Below are positions 725-18,452 of a DNA stretch of 22,576 nucleotides, piece by piece. The notes under the pieces were generated by a model that was not told where the DNA came from, ran no database searches, and saw nothing but the letters and a program-made list of their open reading frames with translations. This DNA is from a virus: positions 1-22,576 of IMG/VR virus record IMGVR_UViG_3300010396_000104, one strand, 5' to 3'. Both the position numbers and the translations under genes were made by a program. Position 1 is the stretch's first letter; every line of letters begins with the position of its first letter.

Positions 725-733
725 AGACTCCCC

Positions 734-1975: not shown

Positions 1976-1979
1976 GACC

Positions 1980-2462
1980 ATGAGCAACCGGAACCACGAC
2001 AAGCTCCACGGGCTCATCGGGCCCGGCAAGATCATCGTGGACGGCAGCTTCGTCCCGCTGACCGGAGCCGGGACGGTCGACGCCACGAAGGTGACGGGGC
2101 TCGGGTTCGGGTACGCGCCCGTCAAGGGCGTCATGGCGCTCATCACGCCGCCCCAGAACAACCCGATCCCCCTCAGCACCGCGGGCATCGTCCGCACCGG
2201 CACGGGGCTCTACACCATCACCTTCGAGGACCCGTACCTCGAGGTGGTGAGCTTCCGGTGCGACCTCGCGGTGGCTGCCGCAGGCTCGGCCCTGCGCGCG
2301 GTGCCCGTCGAGCCCATCACCGGCACGTCGACCGCGAACACCGCGCCGACCATCACCATCGTCATCCTGAACGGGGCGACCCCGACGGATGCCGCGGCGA
2401 GCCAGCGCGTGCACTTCCACGCGGTCTTCCGCGACTCTACCACCCGGTACCAGAAGCCCTGA
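1980..2462 (+). CDS. Hypothetical small structural protein (head-module)
   Basis: The product is 160 residues, starting four bases after the capsid stop. It is dominated by short beta-prone segments (KIIVDGSFVPLTG, GLYTITFEDPYL, TITIVILNG) and ends VHFHAVFRDSTTRYQKP. There is no signal peptide, membrane segment or catalytic motif. The regular beta character and position right after the coat gene are compatible with a head decoration or minor capsid protein that binds the outside of the shell. That is inference from location and composition. No specific family is recognised. It is close enough to the capsid gene to be co-translated with it. Confidence 0.6.
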   Translation: MSNRNHDKLHGLIGPGKIIVDGSFVPLTGAGTVDATKVTGLGFGYAPVKGVMALITPPQNNPIPLSTAGIVRTGTGLYTITFEDPYLEVVSFRCDLAVAAAGSALRAVPVEPITGTSTANTAPTITIVILNGATPTDAAASQRVHFHAVFRDSTTRYQKP

Positions 2463-2470
2463 GGCCGACC

Positions 2471-2716
2471 ATGGCGGACGCGAAGAAGAAGGGCGCACTG
2501 GCCATCATGTTCGGCGCGGGGGAACCCGACGGCGACGAGGCCAGCGCGCCCGGCGACGGAGACGGAGACACCGGCCTCGACCAGGCGTGCGACGAGATGA
2601 TGGCCGCGATTAAGTCGGGCGACAAGGCCGGCTTCTGCGAGGCCTTCAAGGCGGCGCTCGACCTGCACAAGGCTGGCGGCGGCGGCGAAGAGCCGGACGG
2701 CGACGAGGCGGCCTGA
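2471..2716 (+). CDS. Small acidic head-module protein
   Basis: The product is 81 residues. The ATG at 2471 is chosen because it lies eight bases after the upstream stop and has GAGG in the right place. The protein begins with a short basic stretch (MADAKKKGALAIMFGAG). A very acidic Asp/Glu/Gly region follows, then one predicted helix (DEMMAAIKSGDKAGFCEAF) and an acidic Gly-rich tail. Small acidic proteins of this shape, with a 'sub-set of residues AIKSGD...F..A...A.DLH' helix, are often found between coat and adaptor genes in short-tailed phages. Their function is generally unassigned. No enzymatic role is evident. Confidence 0.65.
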   Translation: MADAKKKGALAIMFGAGEPDGDEASAPGDGDGDTGLDQACDEMMAAIKSGDKAGFCEAFKAALDLHKAGGGGEEPDGDEAA

Positions 2717-2719
2717 CCG

Positions 2720-3469
2720 ATGGCCCGCACGGTGACGCTCCAGACCCTGACGGCGCGCGTGAAGCAGCGCGCGAACGTCGAGGTTGCGTCCAATGCGGCC
2801 ATCTTCTCCTCGTCGGAGATCACCGACAACATCAACGAGGGCATCGCGGAGATGCACCGGGCCGTCATCAGCGTGCCCGGGCAGCCGTACTACTTCGAGT
2901 CCGTGTCGTTCGCGACGTCACCGAGCGTCGACACGTACGCCATCGGGCCATCGCAGGCGGTGAACGTGTCCGACTTCCTCGAGGCCAAGGGCTTCGACGT
3001 GCAGTTCGGCCAGAACATCATCAACACGGCCAAGCCGTTCATGTGGACGGAGCGCAACCGCTTCAAGCTCCTGTACAGCGGCTGGATTTACACGCAGCCG
3101 GTGTTCTACCGGATGCTCGGCAAGGGCAGCGCGCAGGCTTCGGCGGCGCTGGACTCGGTGAAGTTCATCCCGGTGCCGTCGGGCGCCTTCAGCGTGACCA
3201 TGTGGTACACGCCGACGCCCACGGTCCTCACGAACCCGTCGGACACGTTCGACGGCATCAACGGATACGAGGAGATCGTCGTGCTTTCGGCGGCGATCAA
3301 GCTCCTCCTGAAGCAGGAGCAGTTCGAGCACGCGCAGGCGCTCATGAGCGAGCGCGCGCGGCAGGAATCGCAGCTCCTTTCGAGCCTGACGCACGACGCG
3401 GAAGCGCCGGAGCGCGTGCAGGACGTGACCCTCAACGACGACGGGTGGATCGGCCGCCCCATCTACTGA
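2720..3469 (+). CDS. Head-tail adaptor / connector protein
   Basis: The product is 249 residues. The N-terminus (LQTLTARVKQRANVEV, then SSSEITDNINEGIAEMH) matches the common phage adaptor pattern, in which a helix with 'R.R.R..' is followed by 'elt..IN.gi.ely'. Such proteins bind under the portal ring and form the interface with the tail. The middle is beta-rich (YYFESVSFATSP, FSVTMWYTPTPTVL). The end is helical (EEIVVLSAAIKLLLKQEQFEHA), followed by a C-terminal tail ending WIGRPIY. It sits between the head genes and the tail genes, three bases after the preceding stop, as expected for a connector. The family-level call is based on this N-terminal pattern and on gene order. Confidence 0.7.
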   Translation: MARTVTLQTLTARVKQRANVEVASNAAIFSSSEITDNINEGIAEMHRAVISVPGQPYYFESVSFATSPSVDTYAIGPSQAVNVSDFLEAKGFDVQFGQNIINTAKPFMWTERNRFKLLYSGWIYTQPVFYRMLGKGSAQASAALDSVKFIPVPSGAFSVTMWYTPTPTVLTNPSDTFDGINGYEEIVVLSAAIKLLLKQEQFEHAQALMSERARQESQLLSSLTHDAEAPERVQDVTLNDDGWIGRPIY

Positions 3470-3481
3470 CCCAAGGACCCC

Positions 3482-4435
3482 ATGAGCCTCTCTTCCACCG
3501 CAGCTCTCGTTTCGATCCAGGACGGCGCCGGAGCCGTCGCCACCCAGGCCAACGGCGCGGTTGCGCTCGTGACGCCCGGCGCGCTCGTCACCTTCTCGCT
3601 CCAGTCGACGTCCGGCGTGGCGCTCTGGGAGATCGCCTTCAACTGCCCGAACTACCCGAGCCTGCACCAGCAGGTGTTCCGGTGGGTTCCCGGGCAGGCC
3701 AACCAGCTGCAGGTGCAGCTCCCGGTCGACTCGCTCCTCGCGAACTACACGAGCACGGTCAGCGACGGCCAGGCTTCGGTGCAGTTCGCGTCGGGGCAGA
3801 TCAGCACCAAGGGCTCCAACTCCGTCCCGGTGCAGCACGTGGCGCGCGTCGCCACCGCCGCGGCGCTCTCCGCGTACACCAACGTCAACGGCGTCCTGAC
3901 CGCCAACGCGAACGGCGCGCTCGGCACCATCGACGGCGTCACCATGGCGGTCGGCGACCTCGTGCTGCTGACGCTCGGCGCGGCCGGCGCGGACAACGGC
4001 CTGTACCAGGTGACGAGCCTGGGCGGCGCCTCGGCGAAGTTCGTGTTCACCCGCGCGCCCGACTGGGCGAACGGCTCCTCGCTCCTGGCCGGGACCGTCA
4101 TCGAGGTGACCGAGGGCAGCACGCTCTCCGGCACCTGGAAGGTCACCACGACCGGCACGAGCACCGTCGGCACCACGAGCATCGCGCTCTTCCCGCGCGT
4201 GTCCACGGTGACCACATCGGCCGCGGTCGCGGGCGTAACCCCGTCGATCGCCACGGCCTGGGTGCTGAGCACCAGCGTCCCGGTCATTCCCGTCGTGGGA
4301 ACGAGCGGCGGCACGCAGGGCATCTGGAAGATCACCACGCAGACCGCCGGCGCGGGCGGGTCGAGCGCCCTCGTCGCGACGAGCTCCAGCGGCACCGACA
4401 CCAGCACGGTGAAGCTCACGGTCATCAACTTCTGA
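3482..4435 (+). CDS. Fibre-like structural protein with N-terminal module shared with the spike
   Basis: The product is 317 residues. AAGGA five bases before the ATG supports the start. Residues 1-96 resemble the start of the large spike at 14422: MSL-ST-ALVSI, FSLQST (38-43), a Trp about seven residues later, GQANQ (71-75) and VSDG (93-96). Residues about 120-235 form a beta module with the pattern seen in many phage fibres (VATAAALSAYT, GVTMAVGDLVLL, DNGLYQVTSLG, FTRAPDWANGS). The C-terminal ~80 residues are Thr/Ser/Gly-rich beta repeats ending VKLTVINF. No enzyme motif is seen. It is probably a surface-exposed fibre or adhesin attached through the shared N-terminus. Its place between adaptor and nozzle genes is unusual for a receptor-binding protein, so a head fibre or neck appendage is also possible. 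Confidence 0.65.
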   Translation: MSLSSTAALVSIQDGAGAVATQANGAVALVTPGALVTFSLQSTSGVALWEIAFNCPNYPSLHQQVFRWVPGQANQLQVQLPVDSLLANYTSTVSDGQASVQFASGQISTKGSNSVPVQHVARVATAAALSAYTNVNGVLTANANGALGTIDGVTMAVGDLVLLTLGAAGADNGLYQVTSLGGASAKFVFTRAPDWANGSSLLAGTVIEVTEGSTLSGTWKVTTTGTSTVGTTSIALFPRVSTVTTSAAVAGVTPSIATAWVLSTSVPVIPVVGTSGGTQGIWKITTQTAGAGGSSALVATSSSGTDTSTVKLTVINF

Positions 4436-4443
4436 GGTGAGCC

Positions 4444-4872
4444 ATGTCGACGGTCCGCGTCGCCACCAGCACGGTCACGCAGCCTGTCGGCTCGCAGGCC
4501 AAGCCGTCCGTGCTCACGCGGGCGGCGCTGGCCATTCGGCAGCTCCAGTTCACCGGCGACGACCTGAAGGAGTCGAGCCGACTGTACCGCGTGCTGAACG
4601 ATCTGCACTCGGCCGTCTCGAGCGCGCTCCAGTCGCTCGCCAGCAACCCGACGCTGAGCGGCGTGCTCCTCTCCGGAGAGGTCTTCACAGGCGGCCAGAC
4701 GCGCACGCTCACCCACGGCCTCGGGCGCGCCTTCCGTGGCTGGTACGTCGTCCGCGCGCAGGGAGGCGTAGCCGCCTTCGTCGAGGCCGGGCTCCCCGCC
4801 GGCATGACGCCAACCCAGGGCCTCTCCCTCACGAGCACCAACGCAGGCACATTCGACCTCTTCGTCTTCTGA
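4444..4872 (+). CDS. Small tail-associated protein with HGLGR motif
   Basis: The product is 142 residues. The Shine-Dalgarno GAGGTGA overlaps the stop of the previous gene and fixes the ATG at 4444. Residues about 28-72 are helical with coiled-coil character (ESSRLYRVLNDLHSAVSSAL). The C-terminal ~65 residues form a beta domain containing RTLTHGLGRAFRGWYVV and ending TFDLFVF. The 'THGLGR..RGW.VV' signature recurs in small tail or fibre-associated proteins of short-tailed phages, but its role is not established. The last base of its stop is the first base of the nozzle gene (TGATG at 4870-4874), so the two are translationally coupled. It may trimerise and cap or decorate the tail. That is inference. 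Confidence 0.6.
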   Translation: MSTVRVATSTVTQPVGSQAKPSVLTRAALAIRQLQFTGDDLKESSRLYRVLNDLHSAVSSALQSLASNPTLSGVLLSGEVFTGGQTRTLTHGLGRAFRGWYVVRAQGGVAAFVEAGLPAGMTPTQGLSLTSTNAGTFDLFVF

Positions 4873-7800
4873 TGCCCATCGAGCGCAAAACCGTCTCCGT
4901 CCCGCTGACCGCCGGCCTCAATCAAAAGGCGGACCTGCGCACGCTCGCCATCAACGGCGCAGCGACGATGACGAATTGCGTGATGCAGAAGACGGGCGCG
5001 GTCCGAAAGCGCTTCGGGCACACGGCGCTCTCGAAGAGTACGACCCTCGCCGGCACCATCGCAGCGGCCGTTGCCGGCGGCAGCTACCGAGGCATTCCGT
5101 GGATGAGCGACGGGGAGACGCTCTACGAATGGAGTGACCTGGCCGCAGCGTGGACCCCCATCGACACCGTGCCGGACGCCGTGGCGCTCGATCGCGTCGG
5201 CATCACGTCGATGCCAGTCAACCCGCTCGACTACGACCAGGCGTACGGCCAGGGGTACCTCGTCGTCGTCTGGACGGCGGACCCCGCCGGGCTTGGCTTC
5301 ACGGTCCCGTTCTACAAGGTCCTCGACCCGGCCACGCAGGCCGTCCTCCTGCCGGACACGCCCGTCGATCCGGCCATCGCATCGCAGGTGAACGCGCCGA
5401 AGCTGACGGTATGCGGGCAGACGCTCCTGCTGACGTACGTGCGGGCGGGCAACATCTGCGGACGGGTTGCGACCCTCGCTGCGGCGTACGCATCGGGGTG
5501 GAGCGGCGAGGTGGTGCTTGCGAACGATGGCGTCGGCAACGTCACCAGCGGCGTCTACGACGTCGCACCGGTGGCGAATGATGCCTCTCGATTCTGCATC
5601 GCGTACGAGGTCTCGCACGCCGGCAAGTCGGTCGCGATCAGCACCTTCAACACCGGCACGCTGACGCTTGCGCACACGGAGTACGACGACACCGCGTTCT
5701 CCTCGCTGACCGCCATCGCGGTTGTGGCCACGAACACGGAGCTCATGTGGGCCACGTACTTCGGTGTCAGCGGCGGCATCAGCTCGATCCGAGCATGGGC
5801 CTGGCAGGACGGCACCCCTGCAAGCCACGTGGCCCCGTTCACCGTCACCGGCTCCGGCACCAGCACGCCCGGGCGAGTCGTCGCCATCCGCAACGACGCG
5901 CAGCACATCACGGTCTACTGGTCGCAGTTCCTGAACACCGCAGCCGACGACGGAACGAACCTCGTCGCGGCCGTAACCCGGGCGGTCACGCTCATCAGCA
6001 CCAGCACCTTCGCCCGCATCCGACCCACCGGCCCGTGCGTCATCGCGAGCAAGCCCGTGCTGGCGCCGAACGGCGGCTGCTACCTGGCGCTCGCGCTGCC
6101 GAGCGTCGCGCAAGGCACCTTCTTCCTGGCGCGCGACTACGGCTTCGGGGACCTTGGCTTCGCCCAGCACCCCATGACGCCAGTCGCCACGCTCGACCCG
6201 CGGCTCTCGAAGTACACGGCGCTGCTCATCCCAACGGGCAATCAGGCGCAGACTGCGCCGCATGCGGTGATCCTAACGACCGTGGGCGCGGGCGTCGTGG
6301 GCGTGATGGCGTTCGAAAACACGTCTCCCACACACGTAGCCTTCTACGAGCACGCCGTCGATACGGCCTCGCCGCTCCGGTACTTCGGCGGGGAGCTCTA
6401 CGAACTCGAGGCGCTGTCCGCGGGCACTCCGCTCGCCTTCGATGGGCAGAACATCGTCGAGAACGGGTTCTTCGCATACCCGCAACTGCCGGCGCCCTCC
6501 TTCTCGGGAGTCGGCGGCAGCATGCAGACGTCGGGGCTCTACCAGTACATCGCGACGTACGAGTGGTACGACGCGCGCGGGCAGATTCACCGCTCCGCGA
6601 CAAGCCCCGCGGTGCAGGTCACTGCAACCGGCGCCGGCAACACGGGTTCCTGCACGGTCACGGTGCCCGGGGTGATGACGCGGCTCGCGCCGTCGACGTC
6701 GACGAGTCCGGCGGCAACGTTTCCCTCGGTCATCCTCTACCGCACGCAGGCGAACGGCGCCGTGTTCTACCGCGTCACGGCCGATCCGGCGCCGCTCGCA
6801 AATGACGCGGCCAGTGCGTTTGTGACCATCACGGATACGGCGAGCGACGCCAGTATCGCGACCAATCCGCTCCTCTACACGACGGGCGGCGTCCTCGACA
6901 ACTTCTGCCCCCCGTCGGGCCGCATCCTCATCACGCACCGCAATCGATGGTGGGTGGCCGGCTGCCCGGACCCTACGGCGCTCTGGCCCTCGAAGGAGAT
7001 CACCCCGGCCGAGCTGCCAGGCTTCAACGAAGCCATGAACTTCACGTGCACGGGCGCCATCCGGGCGCTCGCGAGCATGGACGACAAGCTCGTCGTGGGT
7101 GTGCAGCGCGGGAGCCTCTACGGCATCGAGGTCATCACCGGCGAAGGCCCCACGGACGCCGGCACGCAGAGCGACTGGACGCCCCCGCAGTCTGTCCCGA
7201 GCGACGCGGGCCCGGTCGACCAGCGCGGCATCTGCTCGGGGCCGTTCGGCACCCTATTCCGCTCCCTGAGCGGCGGACCGACTGGCGCCGGCGGCATCTT
7301 CCTGCTCTCGCGTGACTTGCAGGTCTCGTATCTGTCCGGGCCTGTCGAGGACGCGCTGGCCGCGAACCCGGTGGTGACCAGTATGGTGGTCCACCCGACG
7401 GCCGGTCGCGTCTACATCACATGCGTGCCTTCCGACCCTGGCTTCGCGAGCGGCGTCCGGCTCGTGTGGGACTACCAGCAGGGCGGCGTCTGGTCGCTCG
7501 ACACGCTGTACGACGTCGACACGGCCACCGTGCCCGGCGCACGGTGCGCGTGGGTGGCGCAGGCGGCCGGGCGCAGCGTGGTCCACTGGGCGACCACGGC
7601 GGGACGCGTGTACCGCGAGACGAACGGCCTCGGGGCGAACGCCTACACGGACGCGGGGCATTGGATCTCCATGACGTACGCCTCCGCCTGGCTCAAGCCG
7701 ACGGAGGGCGGATTCGCGCGCTTCTGGCGGGTGCTCTGCGAGGGAGACTCGCTCGATCCGGCATCGCTCACCGTGACCCTCACCTTCGATGGCGCGCCGT

Positions 7801-8054
7801 CGAGCTACTACAGCGAGTCGAGCGCCTGGGCCTATGCGGGCGCCATCTCGGCGTTCGATCGATTCCCGCAAGTCGACGTGCAGATGACGCCCGGCAATCA
7901 GAAGGCGAAGAGCATCCAAGTCACGATGAGCGACGCGCCGCCGTCGCCGCCGAGCTTCACCACCGGACAGGGCTTCAGCTTCGGAGCGATCGTCCTCGAC
8001 CTGGGCGTCAAGGACGGCACGTACCGCAACGTTCCACCCGCGCAGAGGGCCTGA
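4872..8054 (+). CDS. Tail nozzle-like large structural protein
   Basis: The product is 1060 residues. The ATG at 4872 is chosen because it overlaps the previous stop (TGATG); the open frame extends further upstream only inside the neighbouring gene. The N-terminus has the pattern of podovirus nozzle or tail-tube-B-type proteins: SVPLTAGLNQKADLR, then TNCVMQKTGAVRKRFGHTAL (31-53 region). The rest is almost entirely beta strands with regular Gly/Asp turns, as in a propeller-type nozzle. A fibronectin-like segment YEWYDARGQIHRSATSPAV begins near residue 563. No membrane segment or catalytic motif is seen. It probably forms the distal tail tube through which DNA exits. The general class is well supported; exact equivalence with T7 gp12 needs structure comparison. 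Confidence 0.7.
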   Translation: MPIERKTVSVPLTAGLNQKADLRTLAINGAATMTNCVMQKTGAVRKRFGHTALSKSTTLAGTIAAAVAGGSYRGIPWMSDGETLYEWSDLAAAWTPIDTVPDAVALDRVGITSMPVNPLDYDQAYGQGYLVVVWTADPAGLGFTVPFYKVLDPATQAVLLPDTPVDPAIASQVNAPKLTVCGQTLLLTYVRAGNICGRVATLAAAYASGWSGEVVLANDGVGNVTSGVYDVAPVANDASRFCIAYEVSHAGKSVAISTFNTGTLTLAHTEYDDTAFSSLTAIAVVATNTELMWATYFGVSGGISSIRAWAWQDGTPASHVAPFTVTGSGTSTPGRVVAIRNDAQHITVYWSQFLNTAADDGTNLVAAVTRAVTLISTSTFARIRPTGPCVIASKPVLAPNGGCYLALALPSVAQGTFFLARDYGFGDLGFAQHPMTPVATLDPRLSKYTALLIPTGNQAQTAPHAVILTTVGAGVVGVMAFENTSPTHVAFYEHAVDTASPLRYFGGELYELEALSAGTPLAFDGQNIVENGFFAYPQLPAPSFSGVGGSMQTSGLYQYIATYEWYDARGQIHRSATSPAVQVTATGAGNTGSCTVTVPGVMTRLAPSTSTSPAATFPSVILYRTQANGAVFYRVTADPAPLANDAASAFVTITDTASDASIATNPLLYTTGGVLDNFCPPSGRILITHRNRWWVAGCPDPTALWPSKEITPAELPGFNEAMNFTCTGAIRALASMDDKLVVGVQRGSLYGIEVITGEGPTDAGTQSDWTPPQSVPSDAGPVDQRGICSGPFGTLFRSLSGGPTGAGGIFLLSRDLQVSYLSGPVEDALAANPVVTSMVVHPTAGRVYITCVPSDPGFASGVRLVWDYQQGGVWSLDTLYDVDTATVPGARCAWVAQAAGRSVVHWATTAGRVYRETNGLGANAYTDAGHWISMTYASAWLKPTEGGFARFWRVLCEGDSLDPASLTVTLTFDGAPSSYYSESSAWAYAGAISAFDRFPQVDVQMTPGNQKAKSIQVTMSDAPPSPPSFTTGQGFSFGAIVLDLGVKDGTYRNVPPAQRA

Positions 8055-9553
8055 TGCCGAACAGCGAATACCTGGGCCCCAGCAACGGAAGCACGGCCGG
8101 CAACGGGCCCCTTCAGCTCATCGGAAACAACGGAGTCCAGCCGAATCTCGGCGAACCGACGCCTTCCCAGAGCTGGATGGGCGACATGGGCGACTCGTTC
8201 TTCGGGACGGCCGCCTACACGCCCGCCGCCCAGTTCGGCGGGAACACGCAGACGAACGCGTACGCGCAGGGGCTCGCCAATCAGGGCCTCGGCATGGCGG
8301 GGAAGGACCAGATCCTTGGTGCGAACGCGGCCGGATCGCTCAACAACGTCGGCAATCAGTACGGGGTGGCGTCGCAGGGCGCATTTGGCAACGCGAGTCA
8401 GGCTCTGGCCGCACAGAACAACGCGCTCGCGATGTACCAGCAGGCCGCGCAGGGCAACGGCCCCAGCGCCGCGCAGGCGCAGCTGCAGTCGGGGCTCGAC
8501 CAGTCGATCCAGGCGCAGCAGGCGCAGGCGGCGAGCGCGCGCGGCGGCTTCGGCCTCGCCAACGCCCAGCACCAGGCGGCCCAGAACCAGGCGCAGCTCG
8601 CGGGGCAAGCCGCGAACAACGCGGCGCAGCTCCGGGCGCAGGAGCAGCAGGCGGCCATGGCCGGCTACGGGAACCTGGGCAGCACCATCCAGAGCCAGCA
8701 GGCCGGCAACGCGCTCGCGCAGCAGGGCAACCAGCTCCAGGCGTACGGCATGGGGGCGGGCCAGCAGCTCGCCTACAACCAGCTTGGCCAGGGCAACCAG
8801 CTCCAGTACCAGAACCTCGCGAACCAGGCCCTCCAGGCGCAGACGAGCGCGGACGTGTCGCACGAGTCCACGATGGACCAGGCGGCGGCGGGCAACGCCC
8901 AGCGAAGCCAGACGGCCACCGGCGGCATCACGAGCATGGTCGGGAGCCTCATCGGCTCCATCGGCGCCATGTCCGACGCGACCAGCAAGTCGGAAATCAC
9001 CCCCGACTCGCCGGCCACCGGGCAGGGGCCCTTCGCCGCCTTCGCCAACGGCGTCATGAGCGGCGCGACGCACGGGATGATGGGCAGCACCCAGGGCATC
9101 TCCGGCCAGTCGAGCGGTGGAGGGGGCATGCTCTCGGGCCTCCTCGGCGGCCACGGCGGGGGAATGGGCGGCATGGGCGGCGGCGGAGCGACCCTCGCGG
9201 ACGGCCACGGCTTCGGTGCTGGCGCCATGGACGCGGTGTCCGACGAGCGCGCGAAGACGGGCATCGCCCCGCAGTCGACGGCGACCGACCGCGTCATGTC
9301 GACCCTGGAGCCGTACACCTACAAGTACAAGAGCCCCGCCGACGAGCCGCGCACACAGCCCGACGGGGGCAAGTACCTCGGCGTCATCGCCCAGAACCTC
9401 GAGAAGACTCCCGAGGGCGCGCAGGCGGTCGAACAGGACCCGGCGACCGGCAAGCGGATGATCAACCCCAAGGCCGGCATGTCACTCGCGCTCGCGGGCC
9501 TCGGCCGGCTGCACGAGAGGGTCTCGGCCCTGGAGGCGATGTTCGGCCGATGA
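8054..9553 (+). CDS. Gln/Ala/Gly-rich virion protein with C-terminal S74-type chaperone domain
   Basis: The product is 499 residues, with a TGATG overlap at 8052-8056. Residues about 60-300 are low-complexity, rich in Gln, Ala, Asn and Gly, with repeated 'QAQ', 'NQLQ' and 'AQQ' units. Residues about 360-385 are a Gly/Met-rich linker. The last 104 residues look like an intramolecular chaperone (Peptidase_S74): SDERAK (Ser396, Lys401), LEPYTYKYK, KYLGVIAQNLEKTPEG, and a final helix LHERVSALEAMF. In characterised members a Ser-Lys dyad with this spacing cuts just before the Ser, releasing the chaperone after trimer folding. A second motif of the same spacing (SDATSK, Ser307, Lys312) lies upstream. 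Its place between nozzle and internal-protein genes suggests an internal or tail-tip protein rather than a classic fibre. Self-cleavage is predicted, not shown. Confidence 0.65.
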   Translation: MPNSEYLGPSNGSTAGNGPLQLIGNNGVQPNLGEPTPSQSWMGDMGDSFFGTAAYTPAAQFGGNTQTNAYAQGLANQGLGMAGKDQILGANAAGSLNNVGNQYGVASQGAFGNASQALAAQNNALAMYQQAAQGNGPSAAQAQLQSGLDQSIQAQQAQAASARGGFGLANAQHQAAQNQAQLAGQAANNAAQLRAQEQQAAMAGYGNLGSTIQSQQAGNALAQQGNQLQAYGMGAGQQLAYNQLGQGNQLQYQNLANQALQAQTSADVSHESTMDQAAAGNAQRSQTATGGITSMVGSLIGSIGAMSDATSKSEITPDSPATGQGPFAAFANGVMSGATHGMMGSTQGISGQSSGGGGMLSGLLGGHGGGMGGMGGGGATLADGHGFGAGAMDAVSDERAKTGIAPQSTATDRVMSTLEPYTYKYKSPADEPRTQPDGGKYLGVIAQNLEKTPEGAQAVEQDPATGKRMINPKAGMSLALAGLGRLHERVSALEAMFGR

Positions 9554-11196
9554 ACACCCTGTCGCCCGCCGTCCTCGCAGCGCTCGCCCAGCGGGGCATC
9601 ATCCCGCCGCAGCAGAACCCCCTGGACGCTGCCGCGGACCTGCCGCCCGACGTGGGCGACACCGGCAGCGCGCAGGCGCTCGCGTCGACCCAGGCGCCCC
9701 CGCCCCAGGCGCCGCCAGCGGCCCCAGCGCCCGCGCAGGCCGCGCCCCAGCCTCCCGCGTTCGATTCTTCGGCGATCGATCAGCTCATGCGCGACGGCAA
9801 AATCACGTACGCGCAGTACGAGCAGATGGGCGGGAAGCTGCCGCCCACGACCGGAAGCGGCTCGATCTTCAGCGGAGGCCCGTCCGCCAAACCCGCTCAG
9901 GCGGCAACCCCGACCCCTCAGCCGGCGACACCAGCGAAGGCCGAAGGCGTGTTCGCAGACCAGGGCGGGGCCGGCGCCCAGCGCCCCCCGGTGTCGATGG
10001 CCTTCCCCATGGGCGGGGTCGCGCCGGCCCACGCGGTTTCGATGGTGAGCCCCGAGAGCCGAGAGGGCATCGAGCGGGCCAACCTCGACAAGCTGGCCGC
10101 GGCGGACCAGGCGCAGGGCGCCGAGGTGGCGGCCAGTGACGCGAACGCGCAGGCCATGCAAGGCGTCGCCGACGCGCTGGGCAAGCAGCGCGGCGAGATG
10201 GAGGCGCGCGAGCGGAAGCGCCAGGAAGCCTACGAGAAGCAGGCGGCCGACTACCGCCGGGCCCAGCGCGAGGCCGCGGAAGGGCGCGTCCGCCCCGAGA
10301 ACGTGAACCTCGCGGGCGCCATCGGCATCGGCCTCGGGGCCCTCGGCGGCGCCCTGTCGCACTCGCCGAACTACGCGCTCGAGGTGGTCAACAAGCACAT
10401 CGACGACAACATCGCCGCCCAGCGCGCCAACCTCGAGAACAAGAACCGCGCCGCCGAGGGGATGCGTCAGGGCCTGGCCGAGATGCGCTCACGGTTCGGC
10501 GACGAGCGCGTGGCGGATGCCGCGGAGCGCGCGCGCCAGCTCGAGGAGGCGAAGGCGACCGGGGACGTCATGGTGGCGCGCTCGCAGTCGCCCATGCTCG
10601 CGGCCAAGTGGGCGGGCGTACGCGCCGGCATCGAGGCCGAGCAGGCCGCGCAGCACGCGCAGATGGAGAAGTGGATTCCCGCGACGGCGACCGGCGGCGG
10701 CATGACGCAAGCCGCGGTCACGAAGCTCGCCGGGGACCTGCTCATGCGCGGCGTCTACAAGAACCCCGACGACGCCACGAACGCCGCGGTGCGCATCCTG
10801 TCGACGGGCCGCGCCGGGACCAGCGAAGACCGCGTGCCGGCCGGCGGCGGGAAGCCTAACGCGCGACTCGCTCGGCGCCAGGCGGAGCTCGACGAGGCCG
10901 ACAAGGCGGCGGCGCGGCTCGAGTCCCTGCTCCGCAGCGGCTCGTCTCTGAGCCTGTCACAGCGGGAGCAGGCCAAGGCCGATGCCGCCGTCCTCCGGCG
11001 AAGCGGCTTCCCGAACGTCCCCGAGGAGCCTCTCACCGTGTGGAGCTCCAGCGGCGCGCGCGCGGCGGGTGTGGGCGAAGTGCGGCGGGCCATCCAGTCC
11101 GAGCGCAAATCGCTCGCCGAGCACGGGACCGCCGGCGGCGAGGAAGCCCCCGAGGACGCGGACCAGTACATCAAGCCGGCCGGGGAGGGCGAGTGA
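9550..11196 (+). CDS. Putative internal virion / ejection protein
   Basis: The product is 548 residues and overlaps its neighbour by ATGA. The start is followed by a Pro/Ala/Gln-rich linker (about 48-70). A short helical motif resembles a SHOCT segment (FDSSAIDQLMRDGKITYAQY, 71-90). Residues about 190-245 are a long charged coiled-coil. Near 251-300 a Gly/Ala-rich hydrophobic stretch (NLAGAIGIGLGALGGALS) is followed by SPNYALEVVNKHIDDNIAAQ. That combination is common in internal proteins of short-tailed phages. The C-terminal half is mostly alpha-helical and charged. Such proteins are typically packed in the head and ejected with DNA to form a channel through the cell envelope. No lytic or polymerase motif is seen. 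Function is inferred from position and composition. Confidence 0.6.
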   Translation: MNTLSPAVLAALAQRGIIPPQQNPLDAAADLPPDVGDTGSAQALASTQAPPPQAPPAAPAPAQAAPQPPAFDSSAIDQLMRDGKITYAQYEQMGGKLPPTTGSGSIFSGGPSAKPAQAATPTPQPATPAKAEGVFADQGGAGAQRPPVSMAFPMGGVAPAHAVSMVSPESREGIERANLDKLAAADQAQGAEVAASDANAQAMQGVADALGKQRGEMEARERKRQEAYEKQAADYRRAQREAAEGRVRPENVNLAGAIGIGLGALGGALSHSPNYALEVVNKHIDDNIAAQRANLENKNRAAEGMRQGLAEMRSRFGDERVADAAERARQLEEAKATGDVMVARSQSPMLAAKWAGVRAGIEAEQAAQHAQMEKWIPATATGGGMTQAAVTKLAGDLLMRGVYKNPDDATNAAVRILSTGRAGTSEDRVPAGGGKPNARLARRQAELDEADKAAARLESLLRSGSSLSLSQREQAKADAAVLRRSGFPNVPEEPLTVWSSSGARAAGVGEVRRAIQSERKSLAEHGTAGGEEAPEDADQYIKPAGEGE

Positions 11197-13979
11197 CGCA
11201 GCCCGCCCCCAATCCGCCCCCGGCCGCCGCGCCGCCGCCGCAGCCCACCATTCCGATGGTGCAGCGCGACGGGACTGTCGTGCAGGTGCCCCACGACCAG
11301 GCCGCGCAGGCGTACGCCTCGGGGCAGTTCGGCTTCGTCAAGGGCTCCGCCGTCCCCGTCGTGGGCTCCGACGGCACCATCGGCCACGTCGACGCGGAGC
11401 ACGCGGGCGATGTCCTCGCCGGCGGCGGGCGCCTCGCGACCCCCGAGGAGTACCGCGACGCGGCCCTGGACCGGGAGTACGGCGGTGTAGGGCACACGCT
11501 CGCGGCCGTGGGCGAGGGCGCCGCGCGCGGGCTGTCGCTGGGCCTGTCCGACCCGCTGGCGGTGGCCGCGGGGCACCTGGTCGGCGGCGACAAGGGCGCC
11601 GAGGCAGTCCGTCAGCACCTCGAGGGTGAAAAAGAGGACCACCCGTACGGTTCCGTCGGTGGCGAGCTGATTGGCGCAGCTCTGCCGGTGCTCTTTACCG
11701 GCGGCGCTGCTGCGCCAGAGGAAGCGGCGGCGCTGGGTGGTGCCGAGGCGCTGGGGGCCACCACGGAGGCCGGCGCGCTCGCCAAGGTGGGCCAGGGCCT
11801 CCGGACACTCGGCGCCCTGCCTAGGGGCGTGACGTCGCTGGGCGCCGCGGCGGAGCGGGCCATGGCCGGGCGCCTCGGCGCGGAGGCCGGGACGGTCCTC
11901 GGGCGCGCGGCGCAGTCGGCGGCGAAGGCAGCGGCTCGCGGCATCGTGGAGGGAGGGCTCTTCGGCGCCGGGCAGGGCATCAGCGAGTCGACGCTGAAGG
12001 ACGAGGACCTCACCGCCGAGAAGCTCTTCGCCTCGGTGGGCCACGGGGCGCTGATGGGGGGCCTCCTGGGCGCTGGCCTGTCGGGCCTCGGCTCGATGGC
12101 CGTCGAGGGCGCGTCTGGCCTGCTGGGCAAGGTGGCGCCGAAGCTCGACGAGGCCGCGGGGGAGCAGGCGTGGAAGTGGCTGGACCCCCTCAAGCGCTAC
12201 TCGGACGAGGCGACGAAGCGCGCCGGCGGGACCGACGAGGTGGGGCGAACGGTGTTCGAGCGCGTCCTGCGCCCGCTCGTCGAAGAGCGCGGCTTCGGCG
12301 GCGCGATGGTCTCGAACGACGAGAAGTACGAGCTTGTCCAGAAGGCGCTGAGCGACACGGGCAAGCAGATCGGCGACCTGGTGGCGGGGCGCTCGGAGGC
12401 CACCGTCAAGCTCGAGGACATGCTCCGGCCCATCCAGGAGCGGATCGAGGAGTTCTCGGACCGCGTAGGCGGCGAGGACAAGGTCCGGACCCTCGAGAAG
12501 CTTCGGGACTCCGTCACGCGCGTCCTCGGCGGCGGCGAGGAAGCTGAGCCGCTGGAATCGAAGCTCTCCGGGCTGGTCCCGGGGAGCCCCGAGCACGAGG
12601 CGGCGCTCACCGGGGCCGGGTACGTGCGGCGCACGCCAGCCGAGCTGGGCGAGCACCTGCGCGAGCACCCGGAGCTCCTCGAGCAGGCCGCGAACGGGGG
12701 CCTTCCGCTCGAGGCGACCCACAAGGCGCCCGCCGTCGTCGCCGCGGAGGGGGCAGAGCGCGCGGTGCCCATCGCCGACGCCATCAAGCAGCGCAGGGCG
12801 CTCCAGCAGCTCGCGTTCGAGGAGAGCAAGAGCCTCGACCCGAACCTGCGCGTCCAGCTCCTGCGCGACGTGTCCCGCGAGTGGAACGGACTCGAGGAGG
12901 AGGCGCTCAACAAGGCCGGCAAGGCGGCCGGCGAGGGCCTGGCGGGCACCCAGCTCCGGGACCTGAACCGGGAGTACCAGCGCCTGAAGATCGCCGCCGA
13001 CGCGCTCGAGTCGAACACCGCGCGCTACGCCACCAACCGCAACCTGTCGCTCACCGACTACCTCGCGGGCGCCGCGCACGCGCCAGGGATGCTCCTCGGC
13101 GGCCACCCGGGCGCCGCGGTGGGCGCGCTGGCGATGAGCGTGGGTCACAAGACGATGCGCGCGCACGGCAACGCGTACGCGGCGCTCATGCTCGACCGGC
13201 TGGCCGCATTCGGGGGCGCCAGCAAGGCCGCGAGCGAGTTCGACCAGGACGTAGACCGCGCCATCGACGCGGCCATCTCCGGCAAGCTGGCGCGGCGGAT
13301 GCCCCGGGCGTTCTACACGAGCGGCGGCGAGTCGGACGCCAAGCGGTTCGAGGAGGAGGAATCGCGCGTACGGCAGCTCGCGGCCATCTCCCCGGGCCTC
13401 GTCGGTGCCCATCTCCAGGCGCGCACGGGTCCCCTCGCGACGCACCTGCCTAACGCCGCGGCGACCATGCAGCAGATGGCGAAGTCGCAGACGGCCTACC
13501 TCGCGAGCAAGCTGCCGGAGGACAACGGCCAGCCCGCGAGCCTGACGCCGCAGCTCGCCAAGCCTCCGGTGTCGGCGGCCGACCGGGGGAAGCTCCTTCG
13601 CGCCGTGGATGCCGTCGAGGGTGGGCCCACCGCCATCATGCAGCGCCTCGCGACCGGGAAGATGAAGCCCGAGGACGTCGAGGTGATGCAGCGCTTCTAT
13701 CCGAAGGCGTACGAGGAGATTCGGCAGAAGATCGGCACCAAGTGCGCCGAGCGCACGAAGCCGCTCGGGTACCAGGAGCGCGTCCGGATCGGCCAGCTCT
13801 TCGACCTGCCGACGGACCCCACGCTCACGCCCCAGTTCCGGCTCTCCATGCAGGAGAGCTACGCGAAGCATCCGACGGCGCCGTCGAGTAGCGGGCCGTC
13901 GCCGCGCAAGTCTGCACCCGCATCGCTCGGCATCAGCAAGTCGCTGGCGAGCGTGTTCGACGCGCCAGGAGGGCGCTAA
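11193..13979 (+). CDS. Putative large internal virion / ejection protein
   Basis: The product is 928 residues. The GTG at 11193 is chosen because it overlaps the preceding TGA (GTGA); the frame is open further upstream only within the neighbouring gene. A Pro-rich start leads to a small beta segment (MVQRDGTVVQVPHDQAAQAY). Several Gly/Ala-rich hydrophobic stretches follow (EGAARGLSLGLSDPLAVAAG near 110; GALMGGLLGAGLSGLG near 285), which could insert in membranes. Long alpha-helical charged regions occupy about 330-900 (for example LEEEALNKAGKAAGEG). No transglycosylase catalytic motif was recognised. Size, helical content and position after the nozzle match the long internal proteins that line the ejection channel. 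It is the third such gene in a row, as in T7-type phages, but sequence homology cannot be judged here. Confidence 0.6.
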   Translation: MTQPAPNPPPAAAPPPQPTIPMVQRDGTVVQVPHDQAAQAYASGQFGFVKGSAVPVVGSDGTIGHVDAEHAGDVLAGGGRLATPEEYRDAALDREYGGVGHTLAAVGEGAARGLSLGLSDPLAVAAGHLVGGDKGAEAVRQHLEGEKEDHPYGSVGGELIGAALPVLFTGGAAAPEEAAALGGAEALGATTEAGALAKVGQGLRTLGALPRGVTSLGAAAERAMAGRLGAEAGTVLGRAAQSAAKAAARGIVEGGLFGAGQGISESTLKDEDLTAEKLFASVGHGALMGGLLGAGLSGLGSMAVEGASGLLGKVAPKLDEAAGEQAWKWLDPLKRYSDEATKRAGGTDEVGRTVFERVLRPLVEERGFGGAMVSNDEKYELVQKALSDTGKQIGDLVAGRSEATVKLEDMLRPIQERIEEFSDRVGGEDKVRTLEKLRDSVTRVLGGGEEAEPLESKLSGLVPGSPEHEAALTGAGYVRRTPAELGEHLREHPELLEQAANGGLPLEATHKAPAVVAAEGAERAVPIADAIKQRRALQQLAFEESKSLDPNLRVQLLRDVSREWNGLEEEALNKAGKAAGEGLAGTQLRDLNREYQRLKIAADALESNTARYATNRNLSLTDYLAGAAHAPGMLLGGHPGAAVGALAMSVGHKTMRAHGNAYAALMLDRLAAFGGASKAASEFDQDVDRAIDAAISGKLARRMPRAFYTSGGESDAKRFEEEESRVRQLAAISPGLVGAHLQARTGPLATHLPNAAATMQQMAKSQTAYLASKLPEDNGQPASLTPQLAKPPVSAADRGKLLRAVDAVEGGPTAIMQRLATGKMKPEDVEVMQRFYPKAYEEIRQKIGTKCAERTKPLGYQERVRIGQLFDLPTDPTLTPQFRLSMQESYAKHPTAPSSSGPSPRKSAPASLGISKSLASVFDAPGGR

Positions 13980-13982
13980 GCC

Positions 13983-14414
13983 ATGGACCAGATCGCCGGA
14001 ACGTACGAGGGAGAGGGCCCCAACACCACCGCGGGCATCGCCAGCCTGCCGGACATCAACGCGGCGCCAGCCGGTGGAACGAACGCCGCGCAGACCGCGC
14101 AGACCACGGCCGACACGGCGAAGAAGGCGCAGGGCCGCACGGCCTCCGTCGCCATCACGCGCCGGCGGCAGCTGCGCGTATCGAGCGAGGGCGCGCGCGA
14201 CGAGATGGCCATCAGTGTTGGCGGCGGCGACCAGAAGCTCGCGAACGCGGCACGCGGCGTCTACGTGAGCGGCGCGGGGAACCTCGTCTGCCGGCTCGTC
14301 GACGCGACAGCCGACTCCACGTTCAGCAACCTGTCGGCGGGCGTGCTCTACCCGTTCCAAGTCTCGATCGTCCGGCAGGCCGGGACCACGGTCACCGGGA
14401 ACATCCTCTTCTGA
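13983..14414 (+). CDS. Small spike-base-like virion protein
   Basis: The product is 143 residues, starting four bases after the preceding TAA with GGAGG about ten bases upstream of the ATG. Residues about 25-50 are Ala/Thr-rich and helical (NAAQTAQTTADTAKKAQ). Residues about 85-143 form a compact beta domain: GVYVSGAGNLVCRLVDA, then LYPFQVSIVRQAGTT and the end VTGNILF. The pattern of a 'G-x-YV...G..V', followed by 'lpf.V..I...GTTA..i..' is seen in small phage proteins that sit at the base of spikes or cap tail parts. It lies directly upstream of the spike gene, which supports a role in spike attachment or assembly. Family membership is likely but not certain. Confidence 0.6.
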   Translation: MDQIAGTYEGEGPNTTAGIASLPDINAAPAGGTNAAQTAQTTADTAKKAQGRTASVAITRRRQLRVSSEGARDEMAISVGGGDQKLANAARGVYVSGAGNLVCRLVDATADSTFSNLSAGVLYPFQVSIVRQAGTTVTGNILF

Positions 14415-14421
14415 GCTGCGC

Positions 14422-17214
14422 ATGTCGCTGACGTCCACGAACGCCCTGGTCTCGATTTCCGTCAACGGCGTGCCGACGCCGTTGGCGTACGGCGGTACGT
14501 TCAACACGACGGCCGGACAGACTCTGACATTCTCGCTCCAGAGCACGAGCCTCGTGCAGCGCTGGGAGCTCGCGCTCCAGAGCGACGATCAGACGCTCAA
14601 CGGCCAGCGCTTCGCGTGGTCGGCAGGGCAGGCGAATCAGATCGCCGTCACATGCCCCATCGCACCGTTCACGCTGAAGTTCACGAGCCTCGTGAGCGAT
14701 GGTGCCAGCAGCACTGCCAGCGCTCCGGGAACGGTCATCGGCGCGAGCGGCAGCAGCGGCAATCAGGGGCAGTCCAACATCACGCTCGCGAATGGTCTCA
14801 ACTCGGACGTAGCTACCACGGGCCTGTCCGTCCTGCGCGTCGGCGGCCCGACGGCTGCCTTTTCCATCGGCGGCATCGCAACAACGTCCGCCACGAAGTC
14901 GGGCTTGCCGATCACGATCATCAACACGACCCAGTACCAGCTCACGATCGTCAACGAAGACCCATCGTCGACGGCCGCGAACCGCATCACGACGTGGGCG
15001 AATGGAGGCAGCAAGAGCGTCAACCTCCGGCCCTACGGCGGCGCGTGCCAGCTCGTCTACGACACGACCGCGAACCGATGGCAGCTCCAGCACAGGGGAT
15101 GGGAGACGCAGGCTCCTCGCCACATCGACGTGCGCGACTTCGGGGCGGTCGGCTCGGGAGCAGTCGACGACACGGCTGCGGTCGACGCGGCCATCGCGGC
15201 GGCGCAGGCGCTCGCCGTGGTCGCAGACAGTCCCGTGACGGTGCGCTTCCCGCACACGCAATGGGCGTCGCCGACCTTCTACGCGCGCACGACGCCGATC
15301 TTCGTCGACACGCCGAACATCCGGCTCGAGGGCGAGCCGATGCCGTACTCGATGCCGTCGGTGCCGCTCACGTACCCGCAGATCACGACCTCTCAGACGG
15401 GCATCAGCGCCGGCCCCGGATTCCAGACATGCCCCGCGCTCTACGTGGGTCCGGACATCCCCGACACGACGTACCAGGCGGAGACCGCCCTTGGTGCGAC
15501 GATCCAAACGGCGACGCTCGAGGTTCTCGTCCCGGCGAACATCTTCCTTGGGATGTTCATGGACTTGGCCGAGCTATCGGACGTCGGTCGCATCGACGGG
15601 CTCAGCGCGTTCACGTTCTCGTTCTGGATTAACCCGGGATCGATCGCTCCCGGCATCGGCGATCTCGTCGACCCGATTGTCTCGAGCAACGGCGGCACGG
15701 CCGGCAACGATCTGAGCGAGGCGTTCTTCGTCTTTCTATCGAACTCCGGCGCCAACATCGGAGCGCAGCTGTACGTCGGGCTACGTACGAGCGTCACAGG
15801 GTTCTCGCCGCATTTCACGAGCAACGCACTCACGGCGAACGCGCTCAACTACGTGAAGGTCACGTACGACGGCAGCTTCGTCTACGTGTACATCAACGGT
15901 GTTCTCGGGGCGCAGAACGCTCAGACAGGGACGATCGTCCAGAAGTGGTACGAGCGCATCCTGATCGGCGCGGAGCCATCATGGTTCCCCGACCGGATGA
16001 ACAAGATCCACACGCACCAGTACACGCTTGGTGGCATCCTCGCCCGCAACGTCTCCGACGTCAGCACGACGATCCCCAGCGCGGAGCCGGTCGCCGACAC
16101 GCACACGCTCTTTTGCTTCTCGTTCGTCAACGCGAACCGCCCGCGCTCGGGCTGGGTCATCGCGACGAGCTCGGGCGCGACGAATCACGGAGCGGTCAGC
16201 CGCACGACCGGCTCGTACGTGTGGATGCGGTGGCAGGGCAAGGTCTCGATCCTTCCGGTCAACAACGTCGGGGTCAAGCACCTCGGATTCAACTCACGGG
16301 GCGCGACGGTCTACGGCTCGACGTGGTCTGACGGGTACGTAGAGCGGTGCGAGTTCTCCGGGACTGCGGCCCTGACGTTCGGGTACTTCTCGTATCCGGT
16401 CCGCGTCCGCGACTGCTTGTTCACGCCGCTGTCGATTGGTGGCTTCGGCGATTCGTGGGGTCTCGGCATCGTGACGGGGACGCAATTCGTGCACGTCACT
16501 GACTGCCAATTCCACGGCACGCCGACCTGGCAAATCGTCGATTCGGTCGGCAATGGGGGCGGAACGGCGCTTCTCGAGAACTCCTGGATCGTCGGTCGCG
16601 GCGGGCGCGGCTCGGTGTTCCTAGCTAACGCGACCGCGTTGTTCAACGCGTGTTGGCTCGATGATGATGGAGGCACCGTCACGGACTGCCTTGTCTTTGC
16701 TGGCACGTCGAACGCACGCTTCAACGGCGGATTCGTATCGCTGTCTAACAGCGCCGTGCCTGCGATCCGAGCGGCCGGAAACGCGGTGATGGAATTGAAC
16801 ACGACGGTAGACGGCGTGCCCGGTATCGCGTCCGACGTGGCTGGCGCCGCGCAAGCCTCGTTCGTCGGCGGGAACATGTCGAGCTTCTTCGGATTGACGA
16901 TCACGAACGGCGAGGTGCCACTCGTCGTCGGTCACCAGGAGGAGACGGGGCGAAAGTCCTTCGCGCTCAGCGGCACGACGCTGACGATGGCGAAGAACGA
17001 CTTCTACAACCGTACGTTTGTGTTCACTGGCGCGCTGACCGGAGACTGTACCGTGACCGTTCCCACGGTCATCGCCGGGTACAGGCGCGTCATCGTGAAC
17101 AAGACGACGGGCGGGCACAACATCATCATCCAAGGTCCGTCGGGCGCGGCCGCGGCTGGCGTCGCGACGACGGCGACCGTGGCTTCGGATGGCACCAACT
17201 GGAACGTGGAGTGA
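14422..17214 (+). CDS. Tail spike with shared N-terminal module, beta-helix and embedded LamG-like domain
   Basis: The product is 930 residues. Residues 1-95 resemble the N-terminus of the protein at 3482 and probably anchor it to the virion. Residues about 115-230 are a beta domain (YQLTIVNEDPSSTAANRITT). Near 234-330 is a pectate-lyase-type beta-helix entry (HIDVRDFGAVGSGAVDDTAA). Residues about 355-545 read as a concanavalin/LamG-like sandwich (LSAFTFSFWINPG from 394; FVYVYINGVLG near 486). Beta-helix rungs resume at about 614-830 (VGVKHLGFNSRG onward). The C-terminus (about 841-930) is a beta domain common in fibre tips (TVTVPTVIAGYRRVIVNKTTG). It likely binds or depolymerises a surface polysaccharide; catalytic residues cannot be assigned by eye. 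Codon use from ~14.8 kb on looks less GC-biased than in the internal-protein genes. Confidence 0.75.
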   Translation: MSLTSTNALVSISVNGVPTPLAYGGTFNTTAGQTLTFSLQSTSLVQRWELALQSDDQTLNGQRFAWSAGQANQIAVTCPIAPFTLKFTSLVSDGASSTASAPGTVIGASGSSGNQGQSNITLANGLNSDVATTGLSVLRVGGPTAAFSIGGIATTSATKSGLPITIINTTQYQLTIVNEDPSSTAANRITTWANGGSKSVNLRPYGGACQLVYDTTANRWQLQHRGWETQAPRHIDVRDFGAVGSGAVDDTAAVDAAIAAAQALAVVADSPVTVRFPHTQWASPTFYARTTPIFVDTPNIRLEGEPMPYSMPSVPLTYPQITTSQTGISAGPGFQTCPALYVGPDIPDTTYQAETALGATIQTATLEVLVPANIFLGMFMDLAELSDVGRIDGLSAFTFSFWINPGSIAPGIGDLVDPIVSSNGGTAGNDLSEAFFVFLSNSGANIGAQLYVGLRTSVTGFSPHFTSNALTANALNYVKVTYDGSFVYVYINGVLGAQNAQTGTIVQKWYERILIGAEPSWFPDRMNKIHTHQYTLGGILARNVSDVSTTIPSAEPVADTHTLFCFSFVNANRPRSGWVIATSSGATNHGAVSRTTGSYVWMRWQGKVSILPVNNVGVKHLGFNSRGATVYGSTWSDGYVERCEFSGTAALTFGYFSYPVRVRDCLFTPLSIGGFGDSWGLGIVTGTQFVHVTDCQFHGTPTWQIVDSVGNGGGTALLENSWIVGRGGRGSVFLANATALFNACWLDDDGGTVTDCLVFAGTSNARFNGGFVSLSNSAVPAIRAAGNAVMELNTTVDGVPGIASDVAGAAQASFVGGNMSSFFGLTITNGEVPLVVGHQEETGRKSFALSGTTLTMAKNDFYNRTFVFTGALTGDCTVTVPTVIAGYRRVIVNKTTGGHNIIIQGPSGAAAAGVATTATVASDGTNWNVE

Positions 17215-17217
17215 GCG

Positions 17218-17727
17218 ATGGCGGACAAGTACCTGACGATCAAGTTCGAGGGCGACGAGCAGGCACTCCACCGCTGGCTCATGTCCGCAATGCCCGACAT
17301 GGCGGCGGCGCTCGAGGGGCGTCTCGACGTCAAGGGTTTCAGCATCTCCGGGCGCGACCCGGGCTTGCCGGCGGATGCACACCACGAAGAACTCAGGCGC
17401 GCGAGCGAGGCGGCGGTTGCCGGACACGAGAAGTGCGAGGCCGGTGCGACGCTCGACGAGCACATCGAGTCTCTTCTTCAGGAGATCGACCACCTTCGCA
17501 AGTCGGTCGCCGTCGCTGGCGCGTTCAAGCGCGGCCTTGTCGAAGCCCACGAGGCGGTCGAGAATCATCCGCCGCACGTCGCGCATGCGAAGGTGAAGGA
17601 TGCTATCACCAAGGCGCGAGCGGTGGCCGGCGCCTTCGCCGACATGGACGCGCGTCGATGGCGAAGGAATCACCCGGAGCCGCCGGTTGCGCCGGTCATC
17701 CTCGGCATGAGGGGCCCGGACCGATGA
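17218..17727 (+). CDS. Hypothetical protein between the two adhesin genes
   Basis: The product is 169 residues. GGAGTGA, which overlaps the previous stop, precedes the ATG. The N-terminus has beta-alpha character (KYLTIKFEGDEQALHRWLM). Residues about 55-140 are helical and charged, with coiled-coil potential (DEHIESLLQEIDHLRKSVAV). The tail is Pro/Arg-rich (RRNHPEPPVAPVILGMRG). It has one Cys and no membrane segment, signal peptide or catalytic motif. No family is recognised. Its stop overlaps the start of the next adhesin gene by ATGA. A chaperone or adaptor for the neighbouring adhesin is one possibility, based only on position. Confidence 0.55.
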   Translation: MADKYLTIKFEGDEQALHRWLMSAMPDMAAALEGRLDVKGFSISGRDPGLPADAHHEELRRASEAAVAGHEKCEAGATLDEHIESLLQEIDHLRKSVAVAGAFKRGLVEAHEAVENHPPHVAHAKVKDAITKARAVAGAFADMDARRWRRNHPEPPVAPVILGMRGPDR

Positions 17728-18452
17728 CCGCGATCGGGATGGGCATGGGCCTGACGTACGGTATGCCCAACAACGGGTGGAATCCGCTCACGGTCTCCGG
17801 CTGTCTCTGTTACCTCACGGCGGACGCAGGCATCACGCTCAACGGCTCGAACGTGTCGCAGTGGAGCGACCAGAGCGGCAATGGCAATCACTTCACGCAG
17901 CCGACAGCCGGGAAACAACCGGCGTTCGTCACGAGCGGCATCAACAGCAAGAATAGCGTCAAAGCTGATGGCGTCACGGCCGGAATGAGGCTCTCGTGCG
18001 TCAACAACATGAGCGCCCTCATGGGGTCCGCGACGGCCGGGGAGCGCATCATCCTCGCGCAGCTCACGGTGGACGGCTTCGGCAACCCTTCTTCGATCAA
18101 CTGGGGCACCGGCGACATCGGCTCGTTTCAGGAGTTCTCGACCGATCACAAGATGTACGACGGATTTGCGACGACGGCCCGAAAGAATGGCTCCGTCGCG
18201 GTCACGACGGGCCTGCTCCTGTCGCCGTACACGCAGGACATCCAGAGCGCGGCCGGCAACTTCACGATGCTGATCAACGGCACCACGTACTTCACGACGG
18301 GGACCAACACCTACGGCGTGAATACGAACATCCCGACGCTCTTCAGCAACGGCACCAACGCAGCGGCTCCGATGTTGATTCGCGCGTTGCTCGTATACGA
18401 CCACGTTCTGTCGTCGGCAGATCGATCCTACGTTCTCGGAGGTCTGACGTGA
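17724..18452 (+). CDS. LamG/concanavalin-like phage adhesin
   Basis: The product is 242 residues. The ATG at 17724 overlaps the previous stop (ATGA). The open frame runs upstream, but only antiparallel to the logic of the preceding gene, so this start is preferred. The order of motifs is that of a jelly-roll carbohydrate-binding sandwich: CLCYLTADAGITLNG, then SQWSDQSGNGNHF (45-57), ADGVTAGMRL, a central strand block, MLINGTTYFTTG, and the end ALLVYDHVLSSADRSYVLGG. 'W.DQSGNGN' and the terminal 'l.vYd..Ls..dr..v..yl' are typical of phage LamG-like proteins. It could be a second receptor-binding protein or a decoration binding host glycans. There is no N-terminal module like that of the other two adhesins, so it must attach differently. 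Confidence 0.65.
   Translation: MTAIGMGMGLTYGMPNNGWNPLTVSGCLCYLTADAGITLNGSNVSQWSDQSGNGNHFTQPTAGKQPAFVTSGINSKNSVKADGVTAGMRLSCVNNMSALMGSATAGERIILAQLTVDGFGNPSSINWGTGDIGSFQEFSTDHKMYDGFATTARKNGSVAVTTGLLLSPYTQDIQSAAGNFTMLINGTTYFTTGTNTYGVNTNIPTLFSNGTNAAAPMLIRALLVYDHVLSSADRSYVLGGLT

Follow-up and report, generated by a model that had tools for sequence, protein, structure and literature searches.

A feature of the viral DNA examined here (IMG/VR record IMGVR_UViG_3300010396_000104, positions 1 to 22,576; this whole stretch of 22,576 bases is called the window) is that two genes lying far apart, designated P1 and P2, encode proteins that begin alike and then differ completely. The question is what this common beginning does. 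A sequence-only reading of the window had proposed that the first ~95 residues of the two proteins form a common docking domain, which arose by module duplication and carries two different adhesins. Our approach was to compare the two proteins with each other, with their counterparts in related viruses, and with known virion proteins. The results lead us to favor, with a probability of roughly 0.6, the interpretation that the module docks to the capsid, and that it is borne by a constant protein, P1, and an adhesin, P2, which use the same class of site. The genes and segments concerned are:

3482–4435, + strand: P1, a 317-amino-acid virion protein of decoration type, constant across relatives, with a body homologous to a Mu-like decoration-slot protein
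3482–3808, + strand: shared N-terminal module of P1 (residues 1–109), from BLASTP to P2; predicted Ig/FN3-like β-sandwich (AlphaFold2, VIA-align)
14422–17214, + strand: P2, a 930-amino-acid adhesin bearing a P1-type module, from BLASTP of the module and Pfam domains
14422–14739, + strand: shared N-terminal module of P2 (residues 1–106), from its sequence match to the P1 module

The N-terminal module of P1 and P2

BLASTP aligned residues 1–107 of P1 with residues 1–105 of P2, with 47/107 positions identical (44%; 65.5 bits, E = 7e-16). The Smith-Waterman score of the two modules was 179, as compared with a mean of 31.8 for 2000 shuffles (standard deviation 5.6, maximum 69), which corresponds to a Z of 26. 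The four motifs named in the sequence-only reading (MSL-ST-ALVSI, FSLQST, GQANQ, and VSDG) were all found in both proteins in identical order. These results demonstrated that the N-terminal module is homologous in P1 and P2, as had been proposed, although its real extent is about 107 residues rather than ~95. The remainders of the two proteins gave a score of 53, where shuffles averaged 55; because this is no better than the shuffles, we conclude that they are unrelated, again as claimed. Within the window the module occurred at only these two sites. It had no match in Pfam and two marginal matches in PHROG (E = 0.05–0.07), and appears to represent an essentially unclassified family.

AlphaFold2 models of nine P1 sequences showed the module as a β-sandwich, with predicted local distance difference test (pLDDT) values of about 80–88 across most of residues 31–110 and near 62 for residues 1–30. 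VIA-align of the P1 model gave Z values of 8–9 to FN3, PKD, and RhoGDI sandwiches, and a Foldseek search of the PDB with P1 returned nothing at E < 0.001, only generic FN3, PKD, and Ig sandwiches. The module is thus predicted to be an Ig/FN3-like β-sandwich; because sandwiches of this kind are generic and common, the fold points to no particular binding partner. The model of P2 had a mean pLDDT of 35, too poor for fold comparison, and its P1-like strand order carries little weight.

Distribution of the module among related viruses

A tblastn search of 50,697 phage records with each module gave no match, and the bacterial and archaeal genomes scanned with profiles of the module and of the major capsid protein gave none either. 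Relatives were found through the major capsid protein. The genes used to identify and align them are:

734–1975, + strand: major capsid protein, the marker for relatives; 50 bits to NF033394, which does not reach the cut-off of 80; 67–80% identical in 13 records
2720–3469, + strand: SU10-type adaptor, directly 5′ of P1; PF24175, E = 2.6e-8
4444–4872: 142-amino-acid protein, encoded after P1 and before the nozzle-type gene, with a helical-looking N-terminus and the C-terminal stretch THGLGRAFRGWYVVRAQGG
4872–8054, + strand: tail hub or nozzle-type protein, so labeled from position and size only; no family match; 37–45% identical in relatives

The group comprised 14 IMG/VR records: L003, a near copy of window positions 1–10491 (99.7% identical), and the 13 relatives with 67–80% identity in the major capsid protein. 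L003 extends 2.2 kb further upstream, where it contains a portal-like open reading frame. The module was found at the P1 position in 10 of the 14 records (L003 and nine relatives). The four records lacking a module match were short, 6.9–12.3 kb, and P1 with its module was present in every relative record that reached the locus. The gene order in relatives was that of the window, namely adaptor, P1, 142-amino-acid gene, and nozzle-type gene. The 142-amino-acid protein, which had no family match in profile scans, is possibly a tail needle or knob. The module profile scan detected none outside this record group. A more distant virus, L056, whose major capsid protein was 45% identical, encoded a homologue of P1 whose module had diverged (33% identity, E = 6e-19); no P2 and no spike base (see below) were detected in it.

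P2 was more variable. Its body contained the following segments:

15124–15207, + strand: start of a pectate-lyase-type β-helix (residues 235–262, DVRDFGAVGSGAVDDTAAVDAAI); PF12708, E = 0.0058, under the gathering score
15577–15984, + strand: LamG/concanavalin-like lectin domain (residues 386–521); PF13385, E = 3.1e-11
16987–17193, + strand: C-terminal domain common to the P2 of G014; 36.6% identity over 71 residues, E = 4e-7

The β-helix/LamG body described in the sequence-only reading was therefore well supported for LamG (E = 3.1e-11) and weakly for the β-helix (E = 0.006, below the cut-off). PDB matches of P2 residues 658–723 to Hax3/TAL proteins were rejected as chance, since no single stretch passed alone.

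Three relatives, G005, G007, and G014, also had the module at the P2 position. Their P2 modules were 76–80% identical to one another, whereas their bodies had no significant match to one another: the body was a short β body in G005, TIG plus a GDSL hydrolase in G007, and in G014 a weak pectate-lyase match together with the C-terminal domain in common with the window. With the anchor constant and the bodies changing, P2 follows the pattern expected of a docking domain, and this part of the earlier proposal was supported. TIG, LamG, and GDSL domains occurred among the relatives both with and without the module.

P2, when present, lay directly 3′ of the following gene or its homologue (window, G005, G007, and G014):

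13983–14414, + strand: spike base protein of the family of Rcc01079 from the Rhodobacter capsulatus gene transfer agent (RcGTA); NF048002; directly 5′ of P2; conserved in G004–G007 and G014

This protein scored 40.8 bits against NF048002 (cut-off 28) over residues 83–139 only, and is assigned to that family. In G004 and G006, the gene 3′ of its homologue lacked the module; its product was LamG-like in G004 and combined TIG with a LamG-like part in G006. The LamG-like assignments were made from appearance and, in G006, a weak tblastn match of the window protein encoded at 17724. G003 had an unrelated gene pair at the P2 locus; P1 with its module was present, and no spike base was detected.

Relationship of P1 to capsid decoration proteins

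The part of P1 beyond the module had been described as a small β module. It is instead 200 residues long and has a recognizable virion domain:

3833–4432, + strand: P1 body (residues 118–317); hhalign to P0008 of L068, phrog_2647, and PDB 9nx3

By hhalign, P1 residues 118–317 aligned over their full length with residues 181–405 of P0008, a 405-amino-acid protein of the Mu-like phage L068 (probability 99.3, E = 7.9e-21), and BLASTP of the P1 body against P0008 gave 46% identity over 104 residues (E = 2e-18). The P0008 gene has a protease/scaffold pair on one side and a major capsid gene of gpT type on the other; the body of P1 is thus homologous to a decoration protein of a capsid gene cluster. 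Residues 1–142 of P0008 belong to phrog_1731 (head and packaging), so that this decoration-slot protein consists of a phrog_1731 domain plus a P1-type body. In Pseudomonas phage Ps59 and Myxococcus phage Mx4, a stand-alone phrog_1731-type domain of 134–140 residues occupies the same slot beside the major capsid gene. The P1 body also matched phrog_2647 (head decoration; E = 9e-11), a label that was checked and never used as sole support, and P1 matched PDB 9nx3, a solved capsid decoration protein (E = 5.7e-5). In L056 the P1 gene lies between the major capsid cluster and the adaptor, the slot that epsilon15 and SU10 use for their gp10 genes, which encode a capsid protein in epsilon15 and an Ig-like protein in SU10. 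From these likenesses we infer that P1 decorates the capsid, and that its N-terminal module has taken the place of a different capsid-binding domain. The proposal that P1 is an adhesin was not borne out, because P1 is constant in all records reaching the locus and its body is that of a Mu-like capsid-decoration homologue; of the two adhesins envisaged on a common docking domain, only P2 is retained.

Several observations weigh against placing P1 and P2 on the head, a placement that is itself deduced. The “head decoration” label is also attached to a Rhodococcus phage E3 gene amid tail-fiber-like genes, and the central domain of P1 occurs in annotated tail fibers. In the clade of the window, P1 lies between the adaptor and nozzle-type genes, where SU10 has its long tail fibers. 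The β-helix plan and late gene position of P2 are typical of a podophage tailspike, and no second tailspike candidate was apparent in the window. The module profile had no sequence similarity to gp10 of epsilon15 or SU10. These points could be accommodated if the module were a tail anchor, with P1 a short appendage of the adaptor or nozzle and P2 a tailspike at equivalent tail sites, as its tailspike-like domains would suggest. We regard this as unlikely, though it is the most serious of the alternatives, given that the P1 body is homologous to a protein from a Mu-like capsid cluster, that P1 in L056 lies after the major capsid cluster and before the adaptor, and that P2 comes directly after a head-spike-base gene. 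Nor is a tailspike role of P2 an obligatory one, since G004 and G006 lack a P2 with the module downstream of the spike base.

The spike base and a probable fiber at 17724

The position of P2 raises the further possibility that the module docks on the spike base protein, P2 being the spike fiber and P1 an alternative fiber on the same base. P2 is directly 3′ of the base gene in the window, G005, G007, and G014, and neither G007 nor G014 showed a separate glycine-repeat fiber in the slot. In RcGTA, the base holds the fiber (Rcc01080) by its N-terminal peptide IALGLGLGL (PMC7296036). A comparable peptide was found in the window, at the start of a different gene:

17724–18452, + strand: second LamG-like adhesin with the N-terminus MTAIGMGMGL, from sequence and likeness to the Rcc01080 peptide

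The counterpart protein in G004 starts with MMLGMGLSM. Of 2150 ATG starts examined, 9 had a glycine/hydrophobic beginning of this kind, and four of these 9 belonged to the 17724 and G004 genes; the peptide assignment is a reading of this pattern rather than a tested homology. P1 and P2 begin with the folded module instead of such a peptide, and for this reason they are not RcGTA-type spike fibers. Judged from its N-terminus, the 17724 protein is probably the true partner of the base, the module having another partner, and these two proteins suggest that a podophage bears a vertex spike on its head. Together with the occurrence of P1 and its module in L056 and G003, this makes docking on the spike base quite improbable.

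The sequence-only reading had pointed to the nozzle or the 13983 protein as a candidate docking partner. Both are less likely than the capsid, since P1 and its module occur in L056 and G003 where no base was detected, the L056 gene for P1 lies within the capsid gene cluster, and the 13983 protein belongs to a head-spike-base family. The resemblance of P1 to capsid decoration proteins and the membership of the 13983 protein in that family are the reasons for regarding the module as most likely capsid-docking.

Other features were observed near these genes or in the relatives. In L068 (1637–4369), a homologue of the spike base gene is immediately 3′ of the major capsid gene. In G003 (L030/L031), the oriented interval 24.4–25.7 kb contains long PDA-type codon repeats in overlapping frames (PDAVPDAGPDAV...). 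On the minus strand of the window, positions 19930–22460 contain several open reading frames beyond an endolysin-like gene, one of them methyltransferase-like in appearance (LRTFVETGTNKAGTAAWAADHFDRVTTIEGDRALYEAA).

Evolutionary history of the module

In a tree of the modules, the P2 module of the window was placed among P1 modules from the clade to which the window belongs, and those of G005, G007, and G014 were placed with P1 modules from the other clade (branch support 99/98). These two clades were also separated, with support of 100/100, in the phage tree constructed from the major capsid, adaptor, and nozzle-type proteins. The P2 modules are not monophyletic: a single P2 clade was rejected by the approximately unbiased (AU) test (p = 0.0097). 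A long-branch artifact was considered and set aside, because the rejection survived removal of G002 (p = 0.0084), use of L056 as the outgroup (p = 0.0056), and restriction to the first 82 residues (p = 0.030).

Because the P2 modules nest with the P1 modules of their own clade, the module was either captured at least twice or homogenized toward the resident P1. Support for such repeated capture or homogenization is moderate, because the branch of the window P2 is long (about 1.9) and sampling is thin. The C-terminal domain common to the P2 proteins of the window and G014 leaves both histories possible. Recent gene conversion between P1 and P2 was not supported; only short DNA matches were found, the best being 74% over 47 bases. 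The proposed duplication of the module therefore holds, but not as a simple single event.

This history also bears on whether the two proteins need a common virion site at all. The module could be an oligomerization or folding cap, given that the Ig/FN3-like fold serves many uses. Against this, the module is at the N-terminus, the virion-proximal end expected for anchors, it is kept while P2 bodies turn over, and each P2 module goes with the P1 modules of the phage clade to which it belongs, as would be expected with a common co-evolving partner. We consider a cap highly improbable.

Discussion

In the interpretation that we favor, the Ig/FN3-like N-terminal module would anchor proteins to the virion exterior, most likely the capsid. 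P1 would be the resident, conserved decoration protein using this module, and P2 a head-borne adhesin made of a copied P1 docking domain and an exchangeable receptor-binding body: LamG and a β-helix in the window, and TIG plus GDSL hydrolase or others in relatives. P1, in bulk, and P2, as a minority, would then fill one class of capsid site, which they may share or compete for. A more speculative extension, which we advance only tentatively, is that the docking domain of the decoration protein has been repeatedly re-copied onto the changing adhesin, by independent capture or gene conversion, the anchor keeping pace with the resident P1. If true, this system and an RcGTA-type vertex spike would give three kinds of display on one podophage head.

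The module offers a handle on how phages gain new head receptor-binding parts, by copying a decoration anchor and changing the rest. If the docking interpretation is correct, displayed parts could be swapped without rebuilding the shell, in an unclassified family of short-tailed phages. This idea is testable because TIG, LamG, and GDSL cargo occurs both with and without the module. The findings also connect head spikes of the gene transfer agent type to ordinary podophages.

Four known systems invite comparison. In RcGTA (PMC7296036), the head spike has a base of the family of the 13983 protein and a fiber with a peptide like that of the 17724 protein; P1 and P2 differ from it. The TSP2 and TSP4 tailspikes of Ackermannviridae (PMC11414711) have common N-terminal XD domains and varying C-termini, as P1 and P2 do, but there the XD domains link tailspikes in a branched tail complex, whereas here no branching is indicated and one partner is a constant decoration-type protein. 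The Ig-like head proteins epsilon15 gp10, SU10 gp10, and phi29 gp8.5 (PMC9509320) have an Ig-like domain, as predicted for the module, and the slot of the two gp10 genes between major capsid protein and adaptor resembles that of P1 in L056, but the module has no sequence similarity to either gp10. The closest precedent appears to be the paired Hoc-like proteins of Enterobacter phage PG7, which, like those of Serratia phage Muldoon, have a common capsid-binding domain (PMC10385173). The longer PG7 protein has this domain at its N-terminus and a GDSL lipase/acylhydrolase at its C-terminus (PMC10385173), an architecture like that of the module-TIG-GDSL protein of G007. Hoc proteins belong to T4-like myophages and usually carry the binding domain at the C-terminus; in the present system, the small protein stays constant and the large one has a body that changes. 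The differences from these counterparts are a module with no Pfam match and two marginal PHROG matches, a constant decoration-type partner, and the apparent repeated capture.

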